A DNA stretch of 64,000 nt from a virus. The notes under the pieces were generated by a model, which was not told where the DNA came from, did not search any database, and was given only the letters and a program-made list of their open reading frames with translations. Shown here piece after piece: positions 23,410-61,016 of the stretch. The DNA is taken from positions 1 to 64,000 of the IMG/VR virus record IMGVR_UViG_3300015195_000005; one strand, written 5' to 3'. Position numbers and translations under genes: made by a program. Position 1 is the stretch's first letter, and every line of letters begins with the position of its first letter.

Positions 23410-26400
23410 TCACCTTCTACGCACCCCGCTGGCCCCAAAGCTAGCACCGGCAGGAGTGCGGAACACGCCCTGAGAACCTGATGAGGAAGACGTACCCGGT
23501 ACCAATGGCATGTGAGTCTGACCCGTCCCTGTATTGAAGGATTTAGGCGGAATCCTCAAGTGACTGACCCCAAGTTCCTCTACAAACCTTGCAAAGTAAC
23601 AGACCGCGGCGTCACACAGATGGTCGTTGCCCTTCTGGATGCGCCCATTCTTCCTACGCCACTTCTTAGCCTGATCTATGAAGTCCACATTGGATGCAGG
23701 GATAATAAGATCGTGGGCCTCACTTGTTATGTTCCATGCCGCTACTGCCGACTCCTTCTCTTCAGAGAAGTTCACATCCCTTACTTCAAACCCCTTCTCC
23801 CGCATATAGGGATTTAGATAGTTACCACCCCCGCCAATGTCGCAGGCCATCTCCTGAAACCCCGCCACATATTTGTTGGCGTACCCGATCAGAGCAGCAA
23901 CTATCTGATTTATCCCTGCATTCTCAATCTGCTCAGATGCCAACAGGACATGTTTGGACCCTGGAAGTGCCTGCCATACACAGACCCCCGCTGCCACAGT
24001 ATTGCCTTGATAAGCCACGCAACCAGCCCGACGAGTAACAATAAACTCATCAGGGACAGTACAACAATAAACTTTACCATTATAAGCTACCCGCTCAGGT
24101 TGTGTTAGCACGCGATCTGCCATCAAGGACACGCTAACCGACCATCTAGCCTTTCTATTACCAACAGCAGGAAATCTTAGTTTCATATATGCCCTGTAAC
24201 CCAACCGAACGGCAAGTTCTTGAAAATCAGAACAAAGTTGCTCTGAAGTAGAGTGGTAATCTCCCCCACCTTCGGAGCGCCATGAGCCATCTCCCGTCAT
24301 CATAGCATTAAATAATATGGCCAACTGACGATCAGAAAGATTCAAGAACTGCCGAGGTATCCGTTTATCAGAACTTATAGTCCCGATATTGTCTACCCAC
24401 CACATCCACAATTGTCGGCCACACATCGTCCAGTTAGTATCTCCCGTCTTAGGATTGAAATACTCTTGGTAATCAATACCCAACCTATCCATACAAGCCC
24501 GCATCTGCTTAGTGTTCAGTGGATGCCGCTGAGACATCTTGACACAAGCAGGCTTACGACCACCATCTTTAGCTGGTCGATAACACAAACCGCCTTCAGA
24601 CAGCAGATAACCAAGAAACTCTAACCAGTCGTCCATACAGTAAACCTTGGGATTAACCGCATCCCAGCCCCTGTAACCCTGTATGCCTTTAGATTCGATA
24701 GCATCTATTTCTGGCATAGTAAAGTATTGTTTTTCCCGGCCTCTCCACCATACACTTCCTACAGCATAGGGTTTAGACCACTTCTCTATCTCGTCGGCTC
24801 GCTCAACTCGCCACTCAACATTCCACGCTTTACGAGTAAGCATCCTGTGATTAGGAGTAACCATCATATCTACTCCCCGCCCAGAAAAGTGCAACAACTC
24901 GCCTTGATAATCCTTGACAGTCAACTTGCTGGGAATAACAAAAGACATCTGACGAGTATCTTTGTTAAACTGAGCTACTTTCTGATTGAGAAGCACATCT
25001 TTGAATAACTTCCACCCTGTATCTGTCAATATCTCAGTATGGTCATCATGACAGCCCCAGTCAACACATACCGAGACAGGGAACCCAGGCATGTAGAACG
25101 TGGACCCGTCCTCTTCCACCACACTGTCTAGGAACGCTTTTCGGCTTTTGATGACAAAGCCAGAAGAACCGGGCCTAGATCCCATCTGCTCTATCTCAAA
25201 AGTCTCATGGTGGCGCTTCATGCGCATCCAGAGAGTGACTATCTCGTCATAGGGCACCCAACCCTCTGCATACATGGCTCTACCGCCACAATATGCCCGA
25301 TGCAGTAGTTTACGTTCCTCTATGCCAGTATCGGGATCAATATAAGTTTCATAATGATCCTCTCTGAAGCACACTTCCTCAGACTGGCAGGCATCCCCTA
25401 TACACTCACATCCCGCACATACATCAAAAACATCCCAACGGTATAACTTGTACCCCATCTCTTCGTGATTGTCGATCAAGTCAGCAAACGATCCTGTTTC
25501 ATTGTGAAACGTCGAGGATCTTATATTAATAGAAGGACGAGCGGTGTTGATGGTCGGTAGAGCAGACTTCACCACTTCGGGCTCAGCCTCAGCCTCTTCA
25601 TCTATTACCAACAACCCACCACGGTTAACCTTGACCCCGTTCACAATGCGGATACCACCGGCATGAGGGGATCTAGTCTGCTTCTGAGAGGCGGTAAGCA
25701 CCCTGATCCATGCCCGCTGCTTGTTGGTACTTTCAGAAACTTTCATCTCTCCCGAGACAAGCATCTTCCACTCTTCATGACTCTCCACATACTGCTGAAG
25801 ATAGGTGTAGACGTTAGCAGCCTGTAACTCAGAACCACCCAAGTTCAGAGCATCAAAGTCCATAATCATCCACAGATAGAACTCAACAAAACTGACTCCT
25901 TGTGAATTATGCGTTGGGACCATCTGTTCGCCTACCAAATAAGTATGGGAAGGTGAATCAACTTCAATACAGCGCACCGGCACCGAAGGTACTTCTCGTA
26001 CATTAACGATCATCCTACGAAGATGACGAGTCTCTTGAGCTACATTAAAATCCATCATAGCGTGTTTGCGATTGCTACGAAACACTCGCTCAGTAGGCCG
26101 AAAAGACACCCCATGACTCACTCCATAGCTAATCCCATCTAAGATGGCATCCTTCTTGTATCGAGTGGCCTTCCACCCTAGAGATACCACCAACTCATAC
26201 ACAGCATCAGATAACTGCTCGTTCATATTATCAAACTGACAATTATTATTATAATTGCGGCAGGTGCCATCAGTATCCATCAAGCCAGCCAGGAGCCATC
26301 TACGTTGGCTCACAGAGGCCCGTAGATATTGAGCAGGGACATGCTTGTTGTTAAGCACCCCGAGTGCTCTGAACCTCGGCAACATGCCTAAAACACCAAC

Positions 26401-27294
26401 TCGATAACAGTGCTTACCAATCTCCTTACTACAAGCCCCAATAGTGACGCCTCTACGCTTCATCCTCCGAACTATGTCAAGATCAGAAGCATTAAACGAA
26501 ATCATCCCCGTACCTGTTGTCCCATTACCTAACCAAAGACCAAGCAGATAAGGGTCTACAGGTAGTTCTGCCTTCGGAAATTGTATCGGGAGCGTGTTAT
26601 CAATAGAATGGTTAGTATCGCCCCGTCTACCATACAACAAAGTATCTTTTATCTCTTGAGTAGTCCGCTTACCCTCTCGCTTGCCCCTCCACTGGCCATG
26701 CCAGCCATCATCTCGTAATGTGCGCTGATCGTGCATTAAATTGGCAGCACGCTCTGGGGCCGTTTGCGTCAACCAAGGATGAGTGTCTGAGCACACGATA
26801 GTAGAACCATCACTGAACTCCATCTCATAGCACTTCTTATCACGATAAATAGGATACAGATGCGTAACTTTGCAAGGTTGACCTTCACGATCAAAAAGTG
26901 TGTCCCCTACTTGTAATTGGCCCATCGTTGTCCACCCATCAGGAGTGGGACAAATGGTATAAAGCGAGACAAGCTTGCCTCCCCCTCTTGGGCCTACAGC
27001 GGCAGCCGATCTAACCTCTAAACTACAGGTGTCAATGACCAGATCCCGTAGGCCAGGTTGTATGTCCCCAAACCGAGATACCGCTTCTTCAGACGTGATG
27101 ATCCCCAGCCGAATCATCTTAAGAACAGGCTTCTCAGGCAGTATCAGGCCAAGCCGTATGGCTAAACCCTCTGGGTCATCCCTATATTTAGTCTTCAGGT
27201 TGACTGACCTGTTACGGGTGGCCTTGACATACGACTCTAAGCCCTGAACCGTGGGCAATCTTGGTGACTGTGGCATCTGTCCATCATGCCACAC
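23410..27294 (-). CDS. terL: Terminase large subunit with two inteins
   Basis: 1294 codons; removing two inteins leaves 587 residues, the normal size for TerL. The ATPase Walker A (GPRGGGK-S) is split by intein 1, and Walker B lies in GGLLVIDEEAEAE. The C-terminal nuclease has its first acidic motif in VCVDWG, split by intein 2, and later FQEMACDIGGGGNYL and KGNDHLCDAAVCYFARF. The enzyme pumps DNA into the prohead and cuts it. The start could be ATG 27294 or ATG 27276 (MPQSPRL). No small subunit lies next to it; a candidate is at 38564-39166. Confidence 0.92.
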   Translation of the reverse strand: MWHDGQMPQSPRLPTVQGLESYVKATRNRSVNLKTKYRDDPEGLAIRLGLILPEKPVLKMIRLGIITSEEAVSRFGDIQPGLRDLVIDTCSLEVRSAAAVGPRGGGKLVSLYTICPTPDGWTTMGQLQVGDTLFDREGQPCKVTHLYPIYRDKKCYEMEFSDGSTIVCSDTHPWLTQTAPERAANLMHDQRTLRDDGWHGQWRGKREGKRTTQEIKDTLLYGRRGDTNHSIDNTLPIQFPKAELPVDPYLLGLWLGNGTTGTGMISFNASDLDIVRRMKRRGVTIGACSKEIGKHCYRVGVLGMLPRFRALGVLNNKHVPAQYLRASVSQRRWLLAGLMDTDGTCRNYNNNCQFDNMNEQLSDAVYELVVSLGWKATRYKKDAILDGISYGVSHGVSFRPTERVFRSNRKHAMMDFNVAQETRHLRRMIVNVREVPSVPVRCIEVDSPSHTYLVGEQMVPTHNSQGVSFVEFYLWMIMDFDALNLGGSELQAANVYTYLQQYVESHEEWKMLVSGEMKVSESTNKQRAWIRVLTASQKQTRSPHAGGIRIVNGVKVNRGGLLVIDEEAEAEPEVVKSALPTINTARPSINIRSSTFHNETGSFADLIDNHEEMGYKLYRWDVFDVCAGCECIGDACQSEEVCFREDHYETYIDPDTGIEERKLLHRAYCGGRAMYAEGWVPYDEIVTLWMRMKRHHETFEIEQMGSRPGSSGFVIKSRKAFLDSVVEEDGSTFYMPGFPVSVCVDWGCHDDHTEILTDTGWKLFKDVLLNQKVAQFNKDTRQMSFVIPSKLTVKDYQGELLHFSGRGVDMMVTPNHRMLTRKAWNVEWRVERADEIEKWSKPYAVGSVWWRGREKQYFTMPEIDAIESKGIQGYRGWDAVNPKVYCMDDWLEFLGYLLSEGGLCYRPAKDGGRKPACVKMSQRHPLNTKQMRACMDRLGIDYQEYFNPKTGDTNWTMCGRQLWMWWVDNIGTISSDKRIPRQFLNLSDRQLAILFNAMMTGDGSWRSEGGGDYHSTSEQLCSDFQELAVRLGYRAYMKLRFPAVGNRKARWSVSVSLMADRVLTQPERVAYNGKVYCCTVPDEFIVTRRAGCVAYQGNTVAAGVCVWQALPGSKHVLLASEQIENAGINQIVAALIGYANKYVAGFQEMACDIGGGGNYLNPYMREKGFEVRDVNFSEEKESAVAAWNITSEAHDLIIPASNVDFIDQAKKWRRKNGRIQKGNDHLCDAAVCYFARFVEELGVSHLRIPPKSFNTGTGQTHMPLVPGTSSSSGSQGVFRTPAGASFGASGVRRR
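24001..25053 (-). other. Intein 2 of terminase (nuclease active site)
   Basis: 351 residues starting with Cys after VDWG and ending CVAYQGN before Thr. Block B is TPNHRML, without the Trp, so it looks like a standard Cys1 (class 1) intein with a Gly-Asn end. Block F has KVYCCTVPDEF. LAGLIDADG motifs are FLGYLLSEGG and LFNAMMTGDG. Confidence 0.85.
25906..26973 (-). other. Intein 1 of terminase (Walker A site), class 3-like
   Basis: 356 residues between GPRGGGK and SQGVSFV. It starts with Leu, not Cys or Ser. Block B has HPW (Trp at B:12), block F has RCIEVD (Cys at F:4), and the end is VPTHN (Thr before the terminal His-Asn) followed by Ser. This Trp-Cys-Thr set is the known class 3 signature, in which the block F Cys starts splicing. 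LAGLIDADG motifs are seen as LLGLWLGNG and LLAGLMDTDG, so it is also a homing endonuclease. Confidence 0.85.
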
Positions 27295-30985: not shown

Positions 30986-31100
30986 CGTTAGTACTACCTA
31001 AGATAAGCAAACGGGACTTGTATATCCACCTAGAGACTCCAACTGGGATTCCCACATGGAGACAAGTACCTATCATTCACTTTGTTCACATACTTCGTAT

Positions 31101-31271
31101 CTATCCCTTTCTTACATAACTTATCACTTCGTTTCTTCGATCTATTGATATCTCCTATTTCTATTGTCTATCCCTTTCTTACATAACTTATATATCTATC
31201 TAACCAATAACTACTATCGCTAATCAACTTGTTATATAACTTATATATTGATATCTCCTATTTCTATTGTC
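31101..31271. repeat. AT-rich region with two interleaved direct repeats
   Basis: A 24-bp unit occurs at 31101-31124 and 31168-31191, and a 26-bp unit occurs at 31143-31168 and 31246-31271, all perfect. The surrounding 30986-31327 has no supported gene. On the minus strand the 24-bp unit contains AAGTTATGTAAG, one base off the promoter spacer element AAGTTATGAAAG. It shares ACTTATATATTGATA with 54157-54171. Probably a control region for the leftward genes at 28.6-31 kb. Confidence 0.7.
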
Positions 31272-31327
31272 CCTGTTTAATCTACTATCCGCAAGACTAT
31301 AGAAACACGACCTACTGCTACTGACTG

Positions 31328-46238: not shown

Positions 46239-46291
46239 GTGATCTTGTATCGTATATGCTGTATACTATGAGTATGGGAACGAACTGATGG
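46239..46291 (+). promoter_or_regulatory. Promoter and 4-codon leaderless ORF before the helicase
   Basis: GTGATC-N17-TATACT; 6 nt after the -10 box (46262-46267), ATG at 46274 opens MGTN and stops in TGA whose A begins the helicase ATG at 46288 (TGATG). It looks like a minimal mini-ORF that delivers ribosomes to the next start. Confidence 0.55.
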
Positions 46292-49200
46292 GGCTGAAGC
46301 TCACGCTGTCAAAGACTGGGGATGCCAGGCCAAAGCATCTGGTGGTCGTAGTACCTACCGCCGAGCACTACGAAGTCATGCGTTTGCTGGAGGCCGAAGT
46401 TACCGGGGGCAAGCGTATCGAGCGTAACTTCCTGCGCCAGACCAATCAAGTCCAGTTGAGATTCAATATCTCCTACCTTGAGAAGCTGATGCTGTGCGTA
46501 CCCTTCGCTACTTTGAGCGAGGGCGTAGAGAAAATGTTGCTGAAAACCGAAAAAGCACGGCTGGCAGCTATGCCCGTACCAGAGTTGGACATCCCCGGCA
46601 TGGTCAACCGTGAGCTATGGGACTTTCAAAAGATCATGGTACAAAAACTGGCAAACGAGGAAGTAGAGCTAAACAACGATGAAATGGGCTTGGGTAAAGG
46701 GGTTGTCTATGGTACCCCCTTACTTACTCCTAACGGGTGGCGTAAGATTGAGTATATCCACACCGGGGACAAGGTTATCGGTAGCGACGGTAAGCCTACT
46801 ATCGTAGTTGGAGTCTATCCTCAGCCTGCACAACCGGTCTACCGGGTAACGTTCTCGGACGGTGCTTGGGTCCGCACCGATGCAGCCCATTTATGGCAAG
46901 TATCAGACGCTAATGGGCGCTCCTGCATCCTATCTACCGGCCAGATGCACCAAGCGGTAGACACCTACATCTATGGCAAAATGCCCAATGGCGGCTCCCG
47001 GACCTACCGTGCCAACGCCGGTATCCGACTAGCCAACGGTGATCGCAAATGGCGCGTCCCCCTGGTCGAGCCAGTCCACTTCAATCCAACAAATCTCCCT
47101 ATAAAACCTTATGTGCTGGGCGTAATCTTGGGTGATGGCGCTATTTCCACCAAAGGTTACGTATCTGTGAGCAAACCTCTGGACACAACCGCTCTAATCC
47201 AGCTACTAGAGCAACAGGGAGCTAAAATTCCCGGAATCGGTAGCCAAGGGCAGTTTTCTATCTCAGAAGTTAGTACCGAGCTATGCGCAATGAGACTGAA
47301 CGGCAAGCGGTCCTGGGAAAAGTTTGTACCCAGGGGATATCTACAAGGTATTCCTGCTGACCGCCTGGCGTTGCTTCAGGGCCTTATGGATACTGACGGT
47401 TACGCCATGCCCGATGGAGGCGCTGAGTTTTCGTCTACCTCCTACCGCTTGATTACCGCTGTAATTAGCTTAACCCAATCCCTAGGGGGCGTAGCCAAGT
47501 GTGACCGCAACGGCCGATACACTAAGTATCCATACAACGGAGAGATGAGAACGGGCCGCAAGTCGTGGCGGGTTAACATCAAGCTACCATCCCCCTACAA
47601 CCCCTTCAGACTGCCCCGCAAGGCCACTCAGTATGTCGTGCCAACCAAGTACCAACCAACTCGATTGATCGACTCTATCGAGCCTGATGGGGTTGCAAAA
47701 ACTATTTGCATCAAGGTAAGTGCTCCTGACGAACTTTATGTCACTCGCAACTACATCGTCACCCATAATACTACCGCTATCTTGGCTACCCTGTCTCTGA
47801 AGCAGTGGTTCCCCTGCCTTGTGGTTGTTGGGTCTGTTGCAGGGAAATGGGTCTGGGAGCGTGAGGCTGCCTTAGCTTTCCCTGAGCTTACGGTACAGGT
47901 AGTGGACGGGACCAGTATCCAACGCCGCAAGCAGATCAAAAGTGGAGCCGACATTGTTATCGTCAATGCTCAGGCACTCAGAGTCAAACGTTGGATCGAC
48001 AAGGATACCCACACGATCCAAGAAGAGGTTATGAACCCCGATCTTTTCAAGATCGACTGGGAGTGCCTGGTTGTGGACGAGTATCACAAGTTCAAGAACC
48101 CATCCGCTCAGCAAACCGTTGGCTTTCTGAAAATGGGCTGTGGGCACTTCATCGGAGCTTCAGGGCCTCAACCGCTTACAGCCAAGGTGCTAACTCCTAG
48201 CGGGTGGAAGTCAATGGGTGACATGACCCCTGGTACTGACATCATCGGTCAAGATGGGAAAACCTATCAGGTCACTGGATTCTTTCCCAAGGGCCAACAA
48301 GAGGTCTTTGAGGTTACCTCGTCGGATTATGGAGTTACGCACGCTACTGCCAATCACCTTTGGTCTGTAAACAGCCCTGGCAGGATGCAAAGCAAACTAC
48401 CGTACCGCCTTATGACTACACAACAGATCATCGACCGAGGGCTTCAGGTATGTCATAACTGGATTCACTTCCTGCCTATCCCCCAACCCGTTGAGCTATC
48501 TGACAGCGGGTATCAACCTATTCCGCCCTACATTCTAGGGTTACTCTTAGGCGATGGAACATTCAGAAACGGTATAACAGCTATAGCCAACAATGACCAA
48601 GAAATTCTAGATTATGTCGCCAAACGACTTCCCAAATCAGTTCACTTGACCGACAAGGGGCACTCTAGTTGGAACATTTCTTTGCGCGACAATCAACTAC
48701 GAGGGAAAACTAATCCAGTCACAAGGGGGGTTCGCAAACTTGGACTAGCTGAAGTAGAAGGACGGTACAAATTCATTCCTATCGCATACAAGACAGGTTC
48801 CATCGAAACTAGATTGGCAATCTTGCAAGGTTTGTTAGATGCTGATGGCCACATCACACATAAAAACGCCATTGAATTTACGTCTATCTCTAAACAACTC
48901 GCTGAGGATGTTGTGTTTTTAGCTCGTTCATTGGGCGGCACCGCTTCAATGTGTAAGTCAACTTACGAAGGCCAGTTTGGCAGAGAAAATAATCATCCTC
49001 GTTATAGAGTTGTGCTAGCAATCGCTCCTGGCCTAGTTCCATTTAAGTGTTCTAAGAAGGTAAACAGGTGGACTCCCCAACAACCTCGCACCCGCTCCTT
49101 GGTGAGAAAAATAAAGTCCATCACAAGTGTAGGAGTGCAAGATGTGGCTTGTATCTCTACCAACATCCCTGACCAACTTTACATAACTGACGATTTCATC

Positions 49201-50142
49201 GTCACGCACAACACCCCGATCATGAACCGGCCCGAAGAGGCTTGGAGCTTCATGCACAAGGTAGACCCTGAGCTATATCCCACTTACTACAACTTTGAGA
49301 GCAAGATAGCTGTTACCAACAAGGCTGGTCATATTGTAGGATACAACCCCTCTGAAATGCTTAAGCTGAAGAATTGGCTCAATACCCACTCGCTTAGACG
49401 GCGCAAGGAGCATGTACGGGATGATCTACCTGAAGTTATCCGCTCAGATCAACTTGTACCTCTTACCCCTGAACAGAGGCGGCTCTACAACCAGATCAAG
49501 AATGAGATGATCCTGGCTATGGACGATGGCGAGCTTAAGGACATAACCCAAGTACGGGTACAGATCATGAGGCTCAAGCAAGCTTGCTTCTCTCCCGAGT
49601 TGTACGGTGGTAGTCCCCATAGCGGCAAGATAGATCAGATCAAGCAGGACGTAGCTGACCTTGTGGCATCCGGCGAGAAGGCCATCATCTTCTCTGAGTG
49701 GGCACGGGCCGCACGTATCTTGGAGAGGGAGCTTGCCGAGTACAACCCCGCTTACGTGGACGGCAGCGTGCCTGGCAAGAACCGTCAGGCTCAGGTAGAC
49801 CGCTTTAATTCAGATCCCGACTGCCACTTATACATAGGGACCATCAAGGCTAACCAGGAAGCTATAACGCTATCTGCGGCCACATACGTTCTCTTCGCAG
49901 ACGAGGATTGGACTCCAGCGGCTAACGCTCAGGCTGAGGCCCGTAGCGCATCTGGCGGTATGCGAGGTATCAACGTGACGGGCTCTATCAACATTATCCG
50001 CTATCAGGCTGAAGATACCGTGGAACAGAGACTTAGCGAACGTCTGTACCGCAAGCAGAAGACATTTAACGCGATGGTAGAACGGGATGCAGGATCAAGT
50101 CTCAAGAAAATGAGCATTCGTAGACTTAGGGATCTACTTTAA
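46288..50142 (+). CDS. SNF2-type helicase with two inteins
   Basis: 1284 codons, 578 residues after removal of two inteins. Motif I NNDEMGLGK-TT (split by intein 1), Ia LVVVGSVAGKWVWE, II VVDEYHKFKN, III GASG-TPIMN (split by intein 2), then a helicase C domain (KAIIFSEWARAARIL, HLYIGTIKANQEAI, FADEDWTPAANAQAEARS). Like other phage SNF2/DEAD-like helicases it may act in recombination or replication. Intein placement in two ATPase motifs explains their persistence. Confidence 0.9.
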   Translation: MGLKLTLSKTGDARPKHLVVVVPTAEHYEVMRLLEAEVTGGKRIERNFLRQTNQVQLRFNISYLEKLMLCVPFATLSEGVEKMLLKTEKARLAAMPVPELDIPGMVNRELWDFQKIMVQKLANEEVELNNDEMGLGKGVVYGTPLLTPNGWRKIEYIHTGDKVIGSDGKPTIVVGVYPQPAQPVYRVTFSDGAWVRTDAAHLWQVSDANGRSCILSTGQMHQAVDTYIYGKMPNGGSRTYRANAGIRLANGDRKWRVPLVEPVHFNPTNLPIKPYVLGVILGDGAISTKGYVSVSKPLDTTALIQLLEQQGAKIPGIGSQGQFSISEVSTELCAMRLNGKRSWEKFVPRGYLQGIPADRLALLQGLMDTDGYAMPDGGAEFSSTSYRLITAVISLTQSLGGVAKCDRNGRYTKYPYNGEMRTGRKSWRVNIKLPSPYNPFRLPRKATQYVVPTKYQPTRLIDSIEPDGVAKTICIKVSAPDELYVTRNYIVTHNTTAILATLSLKQWFPCLVVVGSVAGKWVWEREAALAFPELTVQVVDGTSIQRRKQIKSGADIVIVNAQALRVKRWIDKDTHTIQEEVMNPDLFKIDWECLVVDEYHKFKNPSAQQTVGFLKMGCGHFIGASGPQPLTAKVLTPSGWKSMGDMTPGTDIIGQDGKTYQVTGFFPKGQQEVFEVTSSDYGVTHATANHLWSVNSPGRMQSKLPYRLMTTQQIIDRGLQVCHNWIHFLPIPQPVELSDSGYQPIPPYILGLLLGDGTFRNGITAIANNDQEILDYVAKRLPKSVHLTDKGHSSWNISLRDNQLRGKTNPVTRGVRKLGLAEVEGRYKFIPIAYKTGSIETRLAILQGLLDADGHITHKNAIEFTSISKQLAEDVVFLARSLGGTASMCKSTYEGQFGRENNHPRYRVVLAIAPGLVPFKCSKKVNRWTPQQPRTRSLVRKIKSITSVGVQDVACISTNIPDQLYITDDFIVTHNTPIMNRPEEAWSFMHKVDPELYPTYYNFESKIAVTNKAGHIVGYNPSEMLKLKNWLNTHSLRRRKEHVRDDLPEVIRSDQLVPLTPEQRRLYNQIKNEMILAMDDGELKDITQVRVQIMRLKQACFSPELYGGSPHSGKIDQIKQDVADLVASGEKAIIFSEWARAARILERELAEYNPAYVDGSVPGKNRQAQVDRFNSDPDCHLYIGTIKANQEAITLSAATYVLFADEDWTPAANAQAEARSASGGMRGINVTGSINIIRYQAEDTVEQRLSERLYRKQKTFNAMVERDAGSSLKKMSIRRLRDLL
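46699..47769 (+). other. Intein 1 of helicase (motif I), class 3-like
   Basis: 357 residues from Gly after DEMGLGK to VTHN before TT. No nucleophile at position 1. Trp at B:12 in AHLWQ, Cys at F:4 in ICIKV, Thr before HN. LAGLIDADG motifs VLGVILGDGA and LLQGLMDTDGY. Confidence 0.85.
48166..49212 (+). other. Intein 2 of helicase (motif III), class 3-like
   Basis: 349 residues from Pro after GASG to VTHN before TPIMN. Trp at B:12 in NHLWSV, Cys at F:4 in ACISTN, Thr before HN. LAGLIDADG motifs ILGLLLGDGT and LQGLLDADGH. Position 1 is Pro, unable to start splicing itself, as expected for class 3. Confidence 0.85.
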
Positions 50143-53284: not shown

Positions 53285-54132
53285 TGACCTTCCCTGTAGG
53301 TACCCCGATCGCGTTCTACCCTCGCAAGGGGTCTACCAGGCAGGGTGTAGTATGTTATGATTTCTCTCCACAACGCAATAAGACTCTGATACGCTTAGTT
53401 TCAGATCCACTAGATGTTTATGTCCGTACTGACCAACTCAAGAAAGTAGAAGCCACCGTGCCCACCGCTACCATCGAGGCGCCCGTTTCGGAAAATGGGG
53501 CCAAGCCCAAACGGACCAGGCGTACCGCTAAGCCTGATGTCATTGACCTGACCGACTCCGCTCCTGTCAAACGTGGACCGGGAAGGCCCAGGAAGGATGG
53601 CAGCGCCCCTCAGAAGGCCACTACAGCCCGTAAGCGGGTAGCCAAAGCTCCTGTTGCGGAAGCACCTGTTGTGGTCAAGCGAGGGCCAGGGCGTCCCAGA
53701 AAGGATGGTAGTCCCCCGGTACCTAGTGCTCCTAAGCGTGGAGACAAGGCTAAGGCCGCTCGTAAGGTCATAGAGGCCAAGGACAGGGCTATCGTCAAAG
53801 CTCGTGCAAAGGCTGCTGTCCCCAAGATCACAGTCAACGGAGATACCAGGGCTACTGACAACCCATTCAGGATTGGGTGTAACAGCTATATCTACACAGA
53901 GATGCTGAAGCAGGGTGGTAAGCGGTCGGCACTTATCCGTAGGATCAAGTCTAAGGTGCAACTACATCCCTGGACTAAATCAGAAGCCGACATAGATGTA
54001 GACTACGAGATAGACCAACGGCTCATCCTTGTTGCCAACAAGCTGTCTAACTTGGGATGGAAGGTTGAGAAGGGTGGCCGTGGCAGGGAAAGTACCATCA
54101 AGGTGTACCCGCCAAGTAGGAGAAAAGCATGA
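53284..54132 (+). CDS. AT-hook DNA-binding protein
   Basis: 282 residues from ATG 53284 (MTFPVGTPIAFYPRKGSTRQ). An N-terminal barrel-like domain (to about 65) is followed by a Lys/Ala/Pro-rich linker with two perfect AT-hooks KRGPGRPRKDG (about residues 100 and 145), then a globular C-terminus (IRRIKSKVQLHPW, LSNLGWKVEKGGRG). AT-hooks bind the minor groove of AT-rich DNA, such as the AT-rich repeats at 31 kb, so a silencer or nucleoid-like role is possible. Confidence 0.8.
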   Translation: MTFPVGTPIAFYPRKGSTRQGVVCYDFSPQRNKTLIRLVSDPLDVYVRTDQLKKVEATVPTATIEAPVSENGAKPKRTRRTAKPDVIDLTDSAPVKRGPGRPRKDGSAPQKATTARKRVAKAPVAEAPVVVKRGPGRPRKDGSPPVPSAPKRGDKAKAARKVIEAKDRAIVKARAKAAVPKITVNGDTRATDNPFRIGCNSYIYTEMLKQGGKRSALIRRIKSKVQLHPWTKSEADIDVDYEIDQRLILVANKLSNLGWKVEKGGRGRESTIKVYPPSRRKA

Positions 54133-54420
54133 CTTACGAGACTAGGTAACACGACTACTTATATATTGATAATGTGCAGGTTTAAGATGTGCAGTAGCAG
54201 TTAGTAACACCCGATACTGACCTGGGATGTGCCAGCTAGCCTTTTATGCTAGCGGCATCATCCAGAACCAACCCGCTGTCTAGTTGTCGGGGGGTTGGGG
54301 CTCATCGGTGGGTTCCGCAAATGGCCAGATAACGGAATCCGAGTACCTGCGTAACTCAAACCCACCAAGATAGAGCGGAGAGGGTCAGCCCCAGTAGATA
54401 GGAGGGTTGGCCCTCTCTTT
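54133..54420 (+). ncRNA. Candidate structured RNA 1
   Basis: No credible ORF. Consecutive stems: 54225-54263 (GGATG/CATCC, TGCC/GGCA, GCTAGC/GCTAGC, 15 bp in all), 54268-54298 (CCAACC/GGTTGG), 54307-54366 (GGTGGGTT/AACCCACC enclosing TTCCG/CGGAA), and a terminator at 54378-54420. Upstream TATATT and GATAAT lie at 54163-54173 with the 15-mer ACTTATATATTGATA shared with 31239-31253. Not a recognised RNA family. Confidence 0.5.
54378..54420 (+). terminator. Terminator of structured RNA 1
   Basis: GAGAGGG 54378-54384 pairs with CCCTCTC 54411-54417 and the stem extends inward with wobble pairs; TTT follows. Confidence 0.65.
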
Positions 54421-54505
54421 ACATCTATCTGAGGATAGATACGGCTTGCTTTCCGAAACCATGCTATGTATTCTGTTACCTATGGTAGCGATGGGGAGCA
54501 CAGAA

Positions 54506-54652
54506 ATGGACAAAACGACAATCCTAACCCAAGCAGTAGCTCAACTGCGAGCCGAGCTTGCTAAGACCATCTCTGAGCGGGATGCTGCCTTGCAAGAGGC
54601 TTATCTGGTCATGGCTGATAACGAGCGACTCAGGACTCATACGGCTGCTTGA
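54506..54652 (+). CDS. 48-residue coiled-coil protein
   Basis: ATG 54506 has SD GGGGAG 7 nt upstream; the longer frame from 54407 runs into the terminator. Coiled-coil (QLRAELAKTISERDAALQEA). A TTTCCGAAA palindrome (54450-54458) lies just upstream. Confidence 0.5.
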   Translation: MDKTTILTQAVAQLRAELAKTISERDAALQEAYLVMADNERLRTHTAA

Positions 54653-54685
54653 AGTATCCTTGGGTGAAACCTACCTAAAGGATGT

Positions 54686-55078
54686 GTGATGTCTGACCTG
54701 CGTGTGAACATGAGTGAAGCCGATGTTGAGGGACCAGACCTTATCGACCAGCTAAACAAGGCCAACACCCACGTCAAGGCTCTACTGGCTAGCGGAGGGG
54801 CAACACAGTCCAGCAACATTCCCGCTCTGGGGGCACTTACTTCTGCGGCGCCAGCGGCTCTCACATCAGTTCAGAACGCCACCACAGCCGCTGTGGACCT
54901 GGCTACCTCCGAGGCCCTTGCAAACGCTCTCAAGGCCAACTACAACGCTCTCCAGACAGATGTAGTGGCTATCCGTACTGCTCAGGGGCTCATCCAAGCC
55001 GATGTGGCTGTCATCCGTACCAAGATCAACGCCATCCTGACTGCTCTAACAGGTACAGGCAAGCCCATCTCCAGCTAG
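54686..55078 (+). CDS. Helical Ala-rich protein, 130 residues
   Basis: MSDLRVNMSEADVEGPDLID with a helical C-terminal half (VVAIRTAQGLIQADVAVIR). Similar in style to the coiled-coil protein at 28650-28979. Unknown. Confidence 0.55.
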   Translation: MMSDLRVNMSEADVEGPDLIDQLNKANTHVKALLASGGATQSSNIPALGALTSAAPAALTSVQNATTAAVDLATSEALANALKANYNALQTDVVAIRTAQGLIQADVAVIRTKINAILTALTGTGKPISS

Positions 55079-55084
55079 TCGCAC

Positions 55085-55113
55085 TTGCCAAGTTATGAAA
55101 ACCCTGGTACATT
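55085..55113 (+). promoter_or_regulatory. Promoter TTGCCA-N17-TACATT with TTATGAAAA spacer
   Basis: The spacer carries AGTTATGAAAA. No ORF follows; the transcript would begin near 55120 and encode a structured RNA. Confidence 0.65.
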
Positions 55114-55119
55114 GACTTT

Positions 55120-55363
55120 CAGCAGACCCGGCACCGGAACGGTTGCCTCCGATCAAGCCATATCCTTGTGATCCCTGGTACTTCGGACAACCGTTCCTAG
55201 AGTCTTAACTTCTAGCCAAGACCGGCAAGGGCGAAGAGGGGCATCCCGAGGAGTTGTCGATTCGGACAAATGCCATAGAACAGGCAACTGGGCTCTACCG
55301 TCCGATCGCACGGTAGGTAGAAGGCAAGAGGGGCCGCTTCCACCGAGCGGTCCCTCTTCTGCG
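55120..55363 (+). ncRNA. Candidate structured RNA 2 (about 240 nt)
   Basis: Own promoter and own terminator, no credible ORF. Stems: 10-bp GGAACGGTTG 55136-55145 / CAACCGTTCC 55188-55197; CTAGA/TCTAG 55197-55215; GGCAT/ATGCC 55240-55274 enclosing TTGTC/GACAA; CTACCGT/ACGGTAG 55295-55316; terminator 55327-55358. Does not match tRNA, tmRNA or RNase P hallmarks that I could look for by eye. Confidence 0.65.
55327..55358 (+). terminator. Terminator of structured RNA 2
   Basis: AGAGGGGCCGCT 55327-55338 pairs with AGCGGTCCCTCT 55346-55357 with a short pyrimidine tail. Confidence 0.65.
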
Positions 55364-55429
55364 TCCGGGGTTATGTCGCTCCGAAGGTAACCAAATGGCC
55401 GGTTTCCGAAAGAAGTACTGGTCAAACAA

Positions 55430-55468
55430 CAAGTGCCCCCGATCCTTGCGGACACATGGGGGCACTTG
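55430..55468 (+). terminator. Perfect 11-bp hairpin
   Basis: CAAGTGCCCCC 55430-55440 pairs with GGGGGCACTTG 55458-55468. A palindrome TTTCCGAAA (55403-55411) precedes it. A short transcribed unit may end here. Confidence 0.5.
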
Positions 55469-55616
55469 GTAAATTCACTCCCACCACCACAGCCCACCAC
55501 AGAGCGAGGAAGACAGGAGGTAGCCTTATAGTACCACGGTGACGTAGAGCGCAAGCAAGAAATTGCTTTTTCACGCTCCGCACCCGTCCCGCCACTGGCG
55601 ATGACCTTGGTACAGC

Positions 55617-55655
55617 CTTGCCTCCGCTGAGACTTTCCAAAGTCTCCGAGGCAAG
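55617..55655. other. Double-step hairpin
   Basis: CTTGCCTC 55617-55624 pairs with GAGGCAAG 55648-55655, and inside it GAGACTTT pairs with AAAGTCTC. Stable in RNA of either strand. Part of the structured non-coding stretch 55.4-55.73 kb, which contains no supported gene. Confidence 0.5.
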
Positions 55656-55672
55656 AGAAAACCCCCAAACAT

Positions 55673-55727
55673 ACCAAAGCCCCCGATCTCCAAGGATGGA
55701 GTGAGGGCCTTGGTACTTTGATTTTTC
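55673..55727 (+). terminator. Terminator before the winged-helix gene
   Basis: ACCAAAGCCC 55673-55682 pairs with GGGCCTTGGT 55705-55714 with one mismatch, enclosing CTCCA/TGGAG. TTTGATTTTT follows, a good terminator tail. Confidence 0.65.
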
Positions 55728-55750
55728 CACAACCAATAGGAGATTACCTG

Positions 55751-56092
55751 ATGACAACCCACAAGTCAAGCAGCATCGTTCGGCGTAGCCGACCGGCGTT
55801 TACCACCATCCCAGTAAAACTATTTGAAGCCCTGGAGTGGGGAGACGTAAGTATTGCCGCTCCAACTCTTTATGCACTGTTGGGCACTTATGCCGACAAC
55901 ACAACTCACAATGCTTATCCAGGGCAAAAACGTCTAGCTGAACAGATGGGGCTAACTGATCGTCACATCCGACGCCTGCTCGCTGAACTGAAGAAGACAG
56001 GATGGCTCGAAGTTCGCCGCAGAAGAAACAAGACCAACATCTACACCTTGCGGGATAAGCCACGGAGACAGTCCGCCAATCCCCGTAACTAG
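55751..56092 (+). CDS. Winged-helix protein, replication-initiator-like
   Basis: 113 residues from ATG 55751 with SD AGGAG. Winged HTH (YPGQKRLAEQMGLTDRHIRR, then LLAELKKTGWLEVRRR) of the HTH_36 / RepA N-terminal type. It lies next to an iteron-like array (56157-56258), so it may bind it for replication or self-control. Confidence 0.7.
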   Translation: MTTHKSSSIVRRSRPAFTTIPVKLFEALEWGDVSIAAPTLYALLGTYADNTTHNAYPGQKRLAEQMGLTDRHIRRLLAELKKTGWLEVRRRRNKTNIYTLRDKPRRQSANPRN

Positions 56093-56156
56093 CTAACATT
56101 CTGCGATAGTCCAGCATGAGTTTATCTCTACTGATATACCCGTGTTCACTTCTGGA

Positions 56157-56222
56157 CCGGACATGGGTGTCCGGTCGGGATAGGACATGGGTGTCCGGTC
56201 CTGGACCGGACATGGGTGTCCG
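56157..56222. repeat. Three palindromic iterons GGACATGGGTGTCC
   Basis: Copies at 56159, 56183 and 56208 (spacing 24-25 bp), each an inverted repeat GGACA-TGGG-TGTCC; copies 1 and 3 extend to CCGG ends. Such spacing, about 2.3 helical turns, is typical of initiator or repressor arrays. A frame running through the array (56116-56352) encodes only the repeat and is not taken as a gene. Confidence 0.75.
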
Positions 56223-57644: not shown

Positions 57645-60600
57645 ATGAGCTTAGATGCCCAGATCATCTCCCTAGTAGTACGCAAACCCGAACGCCTGGT
57701 ACTTTTACAGCAGCAGGGCGTTACCGCAGATGATCTACAACCCCCTTACGATCGTCTGTGGGGCTACATCCTCCGTATGAAGAGAGATCACGGCTCTGTA
57801 CCCTCCAGGGCCATGATAGAGGCCCGCTACGACTCTGTTCACTGGCCCAGAGTGCTTGAGCGGGACATCCCCCTGATAGTCCACCATCTGAAAGAGCGTA
57901 CCCGGTTCAATAAGTTTCTAAACCTCCTGGGTGAGAGTGCTCGCAATTGTGCGGAGCCAGAGGACATGGAGGACACCCTCCAGATGCTCATGGGGGAACT
58001 GAATCAGTTACAGATGTCCAATGGGCAGCCCAGTTTGGTCAACATCGCCAGTCCTGAGTATCGGGCGCACATAGTTTCGGAAATTACACATCGACGTATG
58101 GGTCGGGCACAGGGCTTACCTACCGGGTTGCCGACTCTTGATGCTGTAACTGGCGGGTTGCAACGTCAACGCATGGTTGTAGTCATTGGTAGAACGGGCA
58201 CGGGGAAATCATGGGTTGACCTTCTCTTTGTGGCAGAGGCCATACGATCAGGGGCCAAGGTCATCTTGTATCCCCTTGAGATGTCCCTGGACGAGACAGC
58301 CATGCGGCTCTACACCATCTTCTCTCAACGACTGTTTGGCGGCTCTAGAGTGCTCAGGAACTTGGAACTTACCAAGGGCCATGTGTCCAAGCGCAAGTTT
58401 CTCCAATTGCTTGACGTGCTGGAGAACCAGTTTAACGGCCAACTGCTTATCTCAGATGTCGGGCGACTTAACACTCCCTATACTGTAGAGCGGATAGAGG
58501 CTGAAGTAGAGATACACCAGCCGGATATGTTTTGGGTTGACTATCTTACGCTGCTAAAGGCCCCCAACCCAGGAGGCGGTGCAGATGACTACAATACCGT
58601 AAGAGCATTGTCTTCAGGGATCAAAGGGATTGCGACCCGTCATAACTGTTTTGCAGGACCAACACGGTTCCTTACGGCTGATGGAACCAAAAATCTTAGA
58701 GAGATGACTAATAGCTCCGTCAAGGTCTTGGGAGCTACCGGAAGTTGGGTAGACGCCACTGTTGAATCTTTCGGCACTCAAAGGCTGTGGGAAGTAGTGG
58801 TCAGGCGCAAAGATCACCGGATGAAGTTCCTAACTACCAAGGAACATCGTTGGTTCATCGTTCGACGGTCTAAGGGAGGTTATGCCAAGGTAGAAGTCAC
58901 TACTGACCAGCTTGAGCCAGGGAATAAGCTGTCCAACAACTCAGTTAAGAGCAAGGGGTATGACTTATCTTCGTGGGGCGTATCTCGCGGGATAACTTAT
59001 GGAGATGGATGTGTACCAAAAGGAAAAAGGTCTGCCCATACCGTATTATGTGGTGACAAGGATGCTCAACTACTCAAATGGTTCCCGCTATCTCCAACCA
59101 GGCAACTAATTACAGGGCTAGAAGTTGGTTGCCTACCTCGTTACTTCAAGCACCTTCCGTCACTATCAGAAAGTACCTCGTATCTTTACGGATGGCTAGC
59201 TGGTTACTTCGCCGCTGATGGCACAGTCGGCAAGGATGGCACATGCCGTATTGGTTCTGTCGATAAAAAGGATATCCAGCACGTCAAAGACGTTTGTAGC
59301 TTGCTGGGCATAGAGGCTGGGCCAATAGGCGAGATAGTTAATACTTCTCAGTGGGCCGCTTCTCATGTAATGTACACAACGCACCTTGCTCTACGGTCCT
59401 TGAGGCGTGACTTCTTCCTGATAGATGAACACCTACGCAGATGGGAAGAAGCAATGGCTCGTCCCGGTAAAATCTCGCAACACTGGTCTGTCGATAGTGT
59501 TCGTTCAACCAATAGATATGAAGAAGTGTTCTGTGCTGTAGTGCCCAACGGGCAGGCATTTACCTTGGACGGAAACATCCTTACTGGTAACTGTGTGGGT
59601 GGGTGCTCTGCTCAAGTCAACAGGGAGGCTCTACGGGTACGCTCGTTCCTTCCCCGCTTAGAGCACATAGCCTATGGAGACTGTGTTCGAGGCGATCAGA
59701 TCATCCAAACTGCTGATGGCATGGTAAGGCTACAAGATGCTGTAGGCGTACCTATGAAGATTTTTGACGGAACAGGATGGGAAGAAGGCATAATTACTTA
59801 TGCCGGTATGAAACAAGAGTGGGAGATACTTTTTGAAGATGGCTCTCGACTAATAGGTAGTAAAGATCACAAGTTATGGGCACAAACAGGTAGTGAAAAC
59901 TTTGAATGGAGTAAGTTCACAGACTTACAACCTGGAGACTATGGGTTGGTAGGCGGGGAGTTTGAATACGGAATAGATACTGTTCCTTATCTCACTCAAT
60001 ATACACCTAAGGGATTAGGAAACAAAGATAATCGAGGCAACTTTGTACGGACACGACTTGTGAACTGTCTAACTGTGCCATTGGCTGAGGTTATGGGCTT
60101 GTTGGTAGGCGACGGCGCTTTGAAACAAAACAATACTTGGAATCTGGCTTTGGATCTCAAAGATCAAGACGTGGCTGACTACTTCTGCCAATCTATCTAT
60201 AATATATTCGGGTATTTACCTAAACTTCGCCCATCTTACAGTAGCGCCAAGTGTCAATATGCTCATGTTAACGCCAAAGGCATCATTCATCAGATGGTGC
60301 AGATGGGTATGCAAAGAGTTTATTCTTGTCAACGATATATTCCTCATACTATTTTACGCTCTACTCCAGAGATGCGATCTGCATTTTTGCGGGGTCTGTT
60401 TGAAGCAGATGGATCTTTCAACGACAAGTGCATTGATTTGGCTACTACATCTGGACAACTGGCTCAAGAAGTGCAACTGGTATTAAGAACGCTTGGAATT
60501 GACAGTACCGCTAGTTGTAAAGAACGACGTTGGGGTATGCCTCAGTCTGATGGATACCGACGTTCAGATATATGGCGAGTGCGTATTCGTAAAGAGATGT

Positions 60601-61016
60601 GGCCGTTTTTTGAGAATGAAATAGGATTTATCTCTCAGCGTAAGAAAACCCTGTTGGTTCAACGCACCGAGTTTGGCAAACGGCCGCACACTTATTCCAA
60701 GCCATTTACACGGGGGCTGGAACCGATGCGTATAGTTTCTGTAACATCTACTGGCAACATGGCCCCAATGTACGATGTAGTAAAGGCAGCAGCGGGTAGT
60801 CATAAGTTTTCACTAAACGGCTTTGTTGTTCATAACAGCATCGGTCAGGATGCTGACCAAGTTATCCCGATTAATCGCAGAGGAGATAAACTATACTATG
60901 CTTTAGTCAAAAATAGGGGTGGCCCAGAAATAGGTAAAGTTACTTGTGACTTTCTGGTCAACTCAGGTATAATTAGAGAGATAGCGGAACAGGAGGACAC
61001 GGAAGATGACAACTAA
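57645..61016 (+). CDS. dnaB: DnaB-type replicative helicase with two inteins
   Basis: 1123 codons, 423 residues after removal of two inteins. SD AAGGA. N-terminal helical domain, Walker A GRTGTGKS (182-189), Walker B DMFWVDYLTLL, then the motif around ATRHN-CVGGCSAQVNR split by intein 1, and EHIAYGD-SIGQDADQV split by intein 2, followed by LYYALVKNRGGPEIG. Unwinds the fork and works with the primase downstream. Confidence 0.92.
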   Translation: MSLDAQIISLVVRKPERLVLLQQQGVTADDLQPPYDRLWGYILRMKRDHGSVPSRAMIEARYDSVHWPRVLERDIPLIVHHLKERTRFNKFLNLLGESARNCAEPEDMEDTLQMLMGELNQLQMSNGQPSLVNIASPEYRAHIVSEITHRRMGRAQGLPTGLPTLDAVTGGLQRQRMVVVIGRTGTGKSWVDLLFVAEAIRSGAKVILYPLEMSLDETAMRLYTIFSQRLFGGSRVLRNLELTKGHVSKRKFLQLLDVLENQFNGQLLISDVGRLNTPYTVERIEAEVEIHQPDMFWVDYLTLLKAPNPGGGADDYNTVRALSSGIKGIATRHNCFAGPTRFLTADGTKNLREMTNSSVKVLGATGSWVDATVESFGTQRLWEVVVRRKDHRMKFLTTKEHRWFIVRRSKGGYAKVEVTTDQLEPGNKLSNNSVKSKGYDLSSWGVSRGITYGDGCVPKGKRSAHTVLCGDKDAQLLKWFPLSPTRQLITGLEVGCLPRYFKHLPSLSESTSYLYGWLAGYFAADGTVGKDGTCRIGSVDKKDIQHVKDVCSLLGIEAGPIGEIVNTSQWAASHVMYTTHLALRSLRRDFFLIDEHLRRWEEAMARPGKISQHWSVDSVRSTNRYEEVFCAVVPNGQAFTLDGNILTGNCVGGCSAQVNREALRVRSFLPRLEHIAYGDCVRGDQIIQTADGMVRLQDAVGVPMKIFDGTGWEEGIITYAGMKQEWEILFEDGSRLIGSKDHKLWAQTGSENFEWSKFTDLQPGDYGLVGGEFEYGIDTVPYLTQYTPKGLGNKDNRGNFVRTRLVNCLTVPLAEVMGLLVGDGALKQNNTWNLALDLKDQDVADYFCQSIYNIFGYLPKLRPSYSSAKCQYAHVNAKGIIHQMVQMGMQRVYSCQRYIPHTILRSTPEMRSAFLRGLFEADGSFNDKCIDLATTSGQLAQEVQLVLRTLGIDSTASCKERRWGMPQSDGYRRSDIWRVRIRKEMWPFFENEIGFISQRKKTLLVQRTEFGKRPHTYSKPFTRGLEPMRIVSVTSTGNMAPMYDVVKAAAGSHKFSLNGFVVHNSIGQDADQVIPINRRGDKLYYALVKNRGGPEIGKVTCDFLVNSGIIREIAEQEDTEDDN
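58647..59591 (+). other. Intein 1 of DnaB
   Basis: 315 residues, Cys start (CFAGPTRFLTADG) and end ILTGN before Cys. Block B EHRWF has Trp and block F VFCAVV has Cys, so it shares parts of the class 3 set but keeps Cys1. LAGLIDADG motifs SRGITYGDGC and LAGYFAADGT. Confidence 0.85.
59682..60836 (+). other. Intein 2 of DnaB
   Basis: 385 residues, Cys start (CVRGDQIIQTADG), end FVVHN before Ser. Class 1 type (block B KDHKLW, block F MYDVVKAA without Cys). LAGLIDADG motifs VMGLLVGDGA and LRGLFEADGS. AT-richer than the surrounding host gene, suggesting later arrival. Confidence 0.85.

Follow-up and report, generated by a model that had tools for sequence, protein, structure and literature searches.

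An untranslated promoter-to-hairpin unit beside a putative replication origin of a probable actinobacterial phage: a possible leader RNA

Positions 55120-55363 (+ strand) of the analysed window, which comprises bases 1-64000 of a virus record of 78,350 bases, form an untranslated unit of about 244 nt, designated RNA-B, running from a promoter-like site to a terminator-like hairpin (approximately 245 nt). RNA-B is a candidate for an already known kind of phage RNA outside the known families, a candidate and not a discovery. It is one of three structured stretches located within 1.6 kb, all of them 5' of a gene for an HTH replication-initiator-like protein. We tentatively suggest, giving this reading slightly less than an even chance, that RNA-B is the promoter-proximal, largely terminated leader RNA of an early/replication operon, by analogy with the Pleft RNA of the mycobacteriophages L5 and D29. 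Actinophages have very abundant small noncoding RNAs, the role of which is obscure, and the position of RNA-B beside a putative origin, with two structured neighbours and with sister phages at hand, would make this region a place to ask if early or replication genes are under the control of such RNAs.

The source is probably a phage of Actinobacteria, as indicated by WhiB, a DnaB helicase with intein-like inserts and distant primase and DnaB matches to Gordonia, Microbacterium, Brevibacterium and Streptomyces phages. Two apparent intein-like inserts were noticed in each of the terminase, the SNF2-type helicase and DnaB (window 23410-27294, 46288-50142 and 57645-61016, respectively). A noncoding, AT-rich segment at 31080-31290 contains repeated CTATTGATATCTCCTATTTCTATTGTC and TTACATAACTTATATAT units.

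Signals and folding of RNA-B

The promoter-like site at 55085-55113 (+ strand) consists of TTGCCA, a 17-nt spacer and the extended -10 motif TGG-TACATT (9/12); transcription is expected to start near 55120. With the cut set at 9/12 or better, or 8/12 with TGN, it was one of six + strand intergenic sites retained, and between 53.5 and 57 kb only two + strand sites were found, preceding RNA-B and the second unit, RNA-A, described below. No + strand ORF of at least 30 aa is present within RNA-B. The 10-bp stem pairs the 5' arm GGAACGGTTG (55136-55145) with the 3' arm CAACCGTTCC (55188-55197); UCCGA (55148-55152) follows the former and UCGGA (55183-55187) directly precedes the latter. The predicted pair probability of this stem was 0.64 in the full RNA-B and 0.90 before the terminator is made. 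A CTACC/GGTAG hairpin (55295-55320) lies immediately 5' of the terminator-like hairpin of 13-15 bp (55327-55357, arms 55327-55339/55345-55357). The latter has no U tract (CTTCTGCG) and was not called by the consensus terminator scan. Since, of 73 hairpins at gene ends of this phage and the relatives, only one has five T among the eight bases that come first, a hairpin without a U tract is the usual form in these phages. A conserved GCGT tail behind the terminators was considered and rejected (4 of 73), and the occurrence of ACGGTAGGTAG 5' of the terminator in both RNA-B and one relative (G004) was judged to be due to chance, the flanks not being alignable.

ARAGORN found no tRNA or tmRNA gene in the window, and a search with Rfam 15 gave no match at or above the gathering threshold there, the best one for 54130-55750 being far below it. 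Similarly, blastn of RNA-B against 50,697 phage records (INPHARED) returned no match and no sequence relationship to the known actinophage leader RNAs of the L5 Pleft type. The observations of the preliminary description proved largely right: the promoter (in the sense of a promoter-like sequence), the 10-bp stem exactly as given, smaller stems, the absence of an ORF and the lack of resemblance to tRNA or tmRNA were all reproduced, and of the terminator the strong hairpin was recovered without a U tract and without a call by the scan. Its interpretation held in part. A discrete untranslated promoter-to-hairpin unit outside the known families was found, and the decoy role was left unsupported.

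The structural case for RNA-B is weaker than was claimed earlier. Separate runs with slightly differing ends and shuffles gave z of -2.8, -3.3, -3.9 and -4.4 for the full unit, and windows as extreme made up 2% of the 160 sampled windows of 250 nt. Without the terminator hairpin (55120-55325), z was -1.5, with 7 of 100 shuffles folding equally well; the part containing the 5' hairpin (hp1) alone gave -2.3 to -2.95. The structure excess thus comes from the terminator hairpin and one good hairpin, and the unit is ordinary when the terminator is removed. Such results could be expected if the stretch had no specific function and combined the terminator hairpin of the preceding small gene (54689-55078, + strand; weak head-fibre-like match to phrog_4366, E 2e-4) with a promoter-like site and a single 10-bp stem that both arose by chance. 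Coding windows with z similar to that of RNA-B fit this explanation, as does the commonness of promoter-like sites (5 found versus 1.7 per 3.5 kb in shuffled sequences). We nevertheless regard it as unlikely, because the neighbours RNA-A and element C both have z of about -6 and because promoter-like sites stand directly 5' of both RNA units.

A complete promoter-to-hairpin unit devoid of an ORF might also be a stand-alone, fully terminated small RNA acting in trans as a regulator, sponge or decoy, unrelated to the downstream operon. RNA-A, which has its own gene behind it, would then be another unit of this type, and abundant small RNAs have been described in the actinophages L5, D29, StarStuff and WC1 (PMC5712189, PMC10986025). 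On the other hand, no long antisense match of RNA-B to the phage's own genes was detected, the best perfect complement being 12 nt, and no RNA-B homologue was found in the relatives. This role appears unlikely.

Structured neighbours and the putative origin

RNA-B is not isolated, as stronger structured stretches occur on both sides, and the neighbourhood of RNA-A and element C is more striking than RNA-B itself. RNA-A (54181-54425, + strand), the second untranslated promoter-to-hairpin unit, lies directly behind the 53215-54132 gene, is preceded by the promoter-like site GTAACA-16-GATAAT (54146-54173, + strand), comprises several hairpins and contains no credible ORF. Its z of -6 and -5.8 were the lowest among all sampled 250-nt windows; the portion cut 5' of the terminator hairpin (54181-54372) still gave -3.35. 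The terminator-like hairpin of RNA-A (54377-54418, + strand, 15-17 bp) is followed by TTTACAT.

Downstream of RNA-B, an 11-bp leader hairpin CAAGTGCCCCC/GGGGGCACTTG (55430-55468, + strand) is followed by leader element C (55531-55720, + strand; z -6.1), composed of a branched domain (55531-55613) with the closing arms GTACCA/TGGTAC, a hairpin at 55617-55655 and a hairpin at 55666-55720 that has ATTTTT behind it. The arms GTACCA, TTGGTAC, TACCAA and TTGGTA could form two alternative pairings in an attenuator-like manner, or could be DNA dyads; a single fold was predicted for the element. The HTH_36 gene (55751-56092, + strand), for which a replication initiation protein was the best match in PHROG, lies 3' of this leader and may be transcribed from a separate promoter, TGG-TACTTT (55711-55719). 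Three iteron-like repeats GGACATGGGTGTCC (56142-56222, + strand), the putative origin, are placed directly behind it.

Four copies of the motif CCYTGGTAC were found in 615 nt of the + strand (window 55102, 55173, 55605 and 55708), one of which overlaps the -10 element of the RNA-B promoter. It was rejected as strong evidence, since with one mismatch allowed an equally frequent 9-mer often appears in shuffled sequences.

The complementary strands of RNA-A and element C fold almost equally well, and for this reason DNA dyads are possible at both places. The stems might act at the DNA level and not as RNA, serving the replication region as dyads of an operator or of an origin. Also consistent with such a function, the iterons adjoin, the four CCYTGGTAC copies (55102 to 55716) share one strand, with one over the -10 of the RNA-B promoter, and the counterpart in the relative G003 is a near-palindrome. 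RNA-B itself speaks against it, as its predicted folding is better for the + strand (z -4.4) than for the complement (z -1.9) and as it is framed by a promoter-like site and a terminator-like hairpin, and the shuffles deprive the 9-mer of weight. A DNA-level role of the stems is in our opinion rather improbable.

Sequence and layout in related phages

No closely related record was found in the viral contigs searched. Alignments of the terminase and the MCP identified as distant relatives G001, G003, G004, G008 and G009 (73-90 kb, nearly whole), G007 (43 kb, partial) and short fragments; their MCPs are 53-62% and their DnaB proteins 43-47% identical to those of this phage. Single queries with the primase, the HTH gene and the MCP retrieved no relatives from the viral contigs, and the scan with the DnaB alignment gave the same relatives only. 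DnaB of G001 and G003 is an unbroken ORF of 424-425 aa. In the genome contigs searched, one relative of the major capsid protein (MCP; 35%) was obtained, in a contig from a MAG of Acidobacteria (L048), and it was not useful.

Whole-record DNA searches with 54100-55760 on G001-G005 gave chance-level matches only, and nhmmer across the intergenic stretches of the relatives did not find an RNA-B homologue. The covariance comparison with related phages, proposed in the preliminary description as a check, was carried out with two single-sequence models, R1 for the hairpin at the RNA-B 5' end and R2 for element C. Models of this kind are insensitive by nature; in 530,884 bases each found only itself. 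Neither blastn nor nhmmer revealed kinship across genomes among RNA-A, RNA-B and the RNA-like stretches of the relatives. The DNA pattern GGAACGGTTGYCTCCGA had six matches in viral contigs, which were judged to be chance, and no other likeness was seen. By DNA or covariance search, the five nearly whole relatives and the partial one offered no second copy of the RNA-B stem in which to look for compensatory changes, and the novel RNA family suggested earlier cannot be claimed.

The layout of the region is partly shared, without likeness in sequence. In G003 the gene order is kept from the 53215-54132 gene to DnaB, and the interval contains, in order, a promoter-like site TTGCAA-17-TATGGT, a small structured segment bearing a terminator hairpin (z -5.6), a near-palindrome, the HTH gene and iterons. 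The near-palindrome (L031:7085-7180) spans 96 nt, has z of -9.4 and holds GATACGCAG/CTGCGTATC. The three repeats GGATGGGTACTTCTT with GATGGGT (L031:6585-6637) occupy the same place behind the HTH gene, and ATGGGT is common to the repeats of both phages. In G001 a perfect stem of 10 bp closes a domain (L020 18054-18194) which, together with a strong hairpin, is situated between DnaB and the HTH gene. A structured leader with an HTH gene is therefore common to two relatives, as a layout only. This likeness may be an analogy, because the HTH protein of our phage is only remotely similar to those of G001 and G003, which are 46-50% identical to each other.

Structured stretches 3' of the 53215-type gene were also seen in G001, G004 and G009, and G008 has terminator-like hairpins only. 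Behind this gene, at L056:16730-16954, G009 carries a strong hairpin domain (z -7.7), a terminator-like hairpin and tRNA-Gln(TTG). In these phages GCGTATCA-like motifs are found 5' of several start codons; the genes concerned may be leaderless, with these motifs as their -10 elements.

The leader RNA model and comparable systems

According to the leader RNA model, the most economical of the readings, RNA polymerase would start near 55120, and the first 80 nt are predicted to fold at once into the 10-bp hairpin. Most transcripts would end at the 55327-55357 hairpin, yielding an RNA of about 240 nt that is stable and untranslated, and a minority would continue across the structured element C to reach the HTH initiator gene and those that follow. 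RNA-B would in this way combine the roles of an attenuated leader and of a small RNA that accumulates, as the Pleft RNA of L5 and D29 does.

Several features argue for the leader model: the promoter-like site at the right distance, with a second one in the same position 5' of RNA-A; the lack of an ORF combined with a strong 3' hairpin of the type usual in these phages; and the location of element C, the initiator-like gene and the iterons directly downstream on the same strand. Further support comes from the same order in G003, from the closed 10-bp-stem domain and hairpin 5' of the HTH gene in G001, and from the L5/D29 Pleft precedent (PMC5712189). The model is weakened by the loss of significant structure when the terminator of RNA-B is left off, by the possible separate promoter of the HTH gene and by the lack of a sequence or structural homologue of RNA-B in the relatives. 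A bolder version, in which RNA-A, RNA-B and element C together would constitute a new RNA-based replication control, with tandem terminated leaders and a switching attenuator setting the initiator level at the adjacent origin and with sister-phage counterparts differing in sequence, seems to us quite improbable.

Among known systems, GOLLD and ROOL are, as RNA-B is proposed to be, noncoding RNAs of phages, and RNA-B gave no Rfam match. GOLLD and ROOL are large ornate RNAs, much larger than RNA-B. The put RNAs of HK022 resemble the proposed RNA-B in being folded RNAs near the start of an early transcript with terminators downstream; they are about 70 nt long, have two stem-loops and act on RNA polymerase, and the comparison with RNA-B is by description only (PMC9378689). 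The RNAs of Rhodococcus phage WC1, likened to RNA-B also by description only, are highly expressed noncoding actinophage RNAs identified by RNA-seq (PMC10986025). The closest parallel drawn here is the Pleft leader RNA of L5 and D29, which is about 500 nt long, approximately 90% terminated, stable, abundant and devoid of an ORF (PMC5712189). The L5 RNA maps to the right end of the genome and was shown by Northern analysis, whereas the 244-nt RNA-B is genome-internal, lies by the replication genes and is predicted from the sequence. Like the Pleft RNA of L5, D29 and StarStuff (PMC5712189), RNA-B combines a promoter-like site, assigned from its letters, with an ORF-less stretch 5' of putative early genes; the strong hairpin at its 3' end, which has no U tract, may act as the stop signal.
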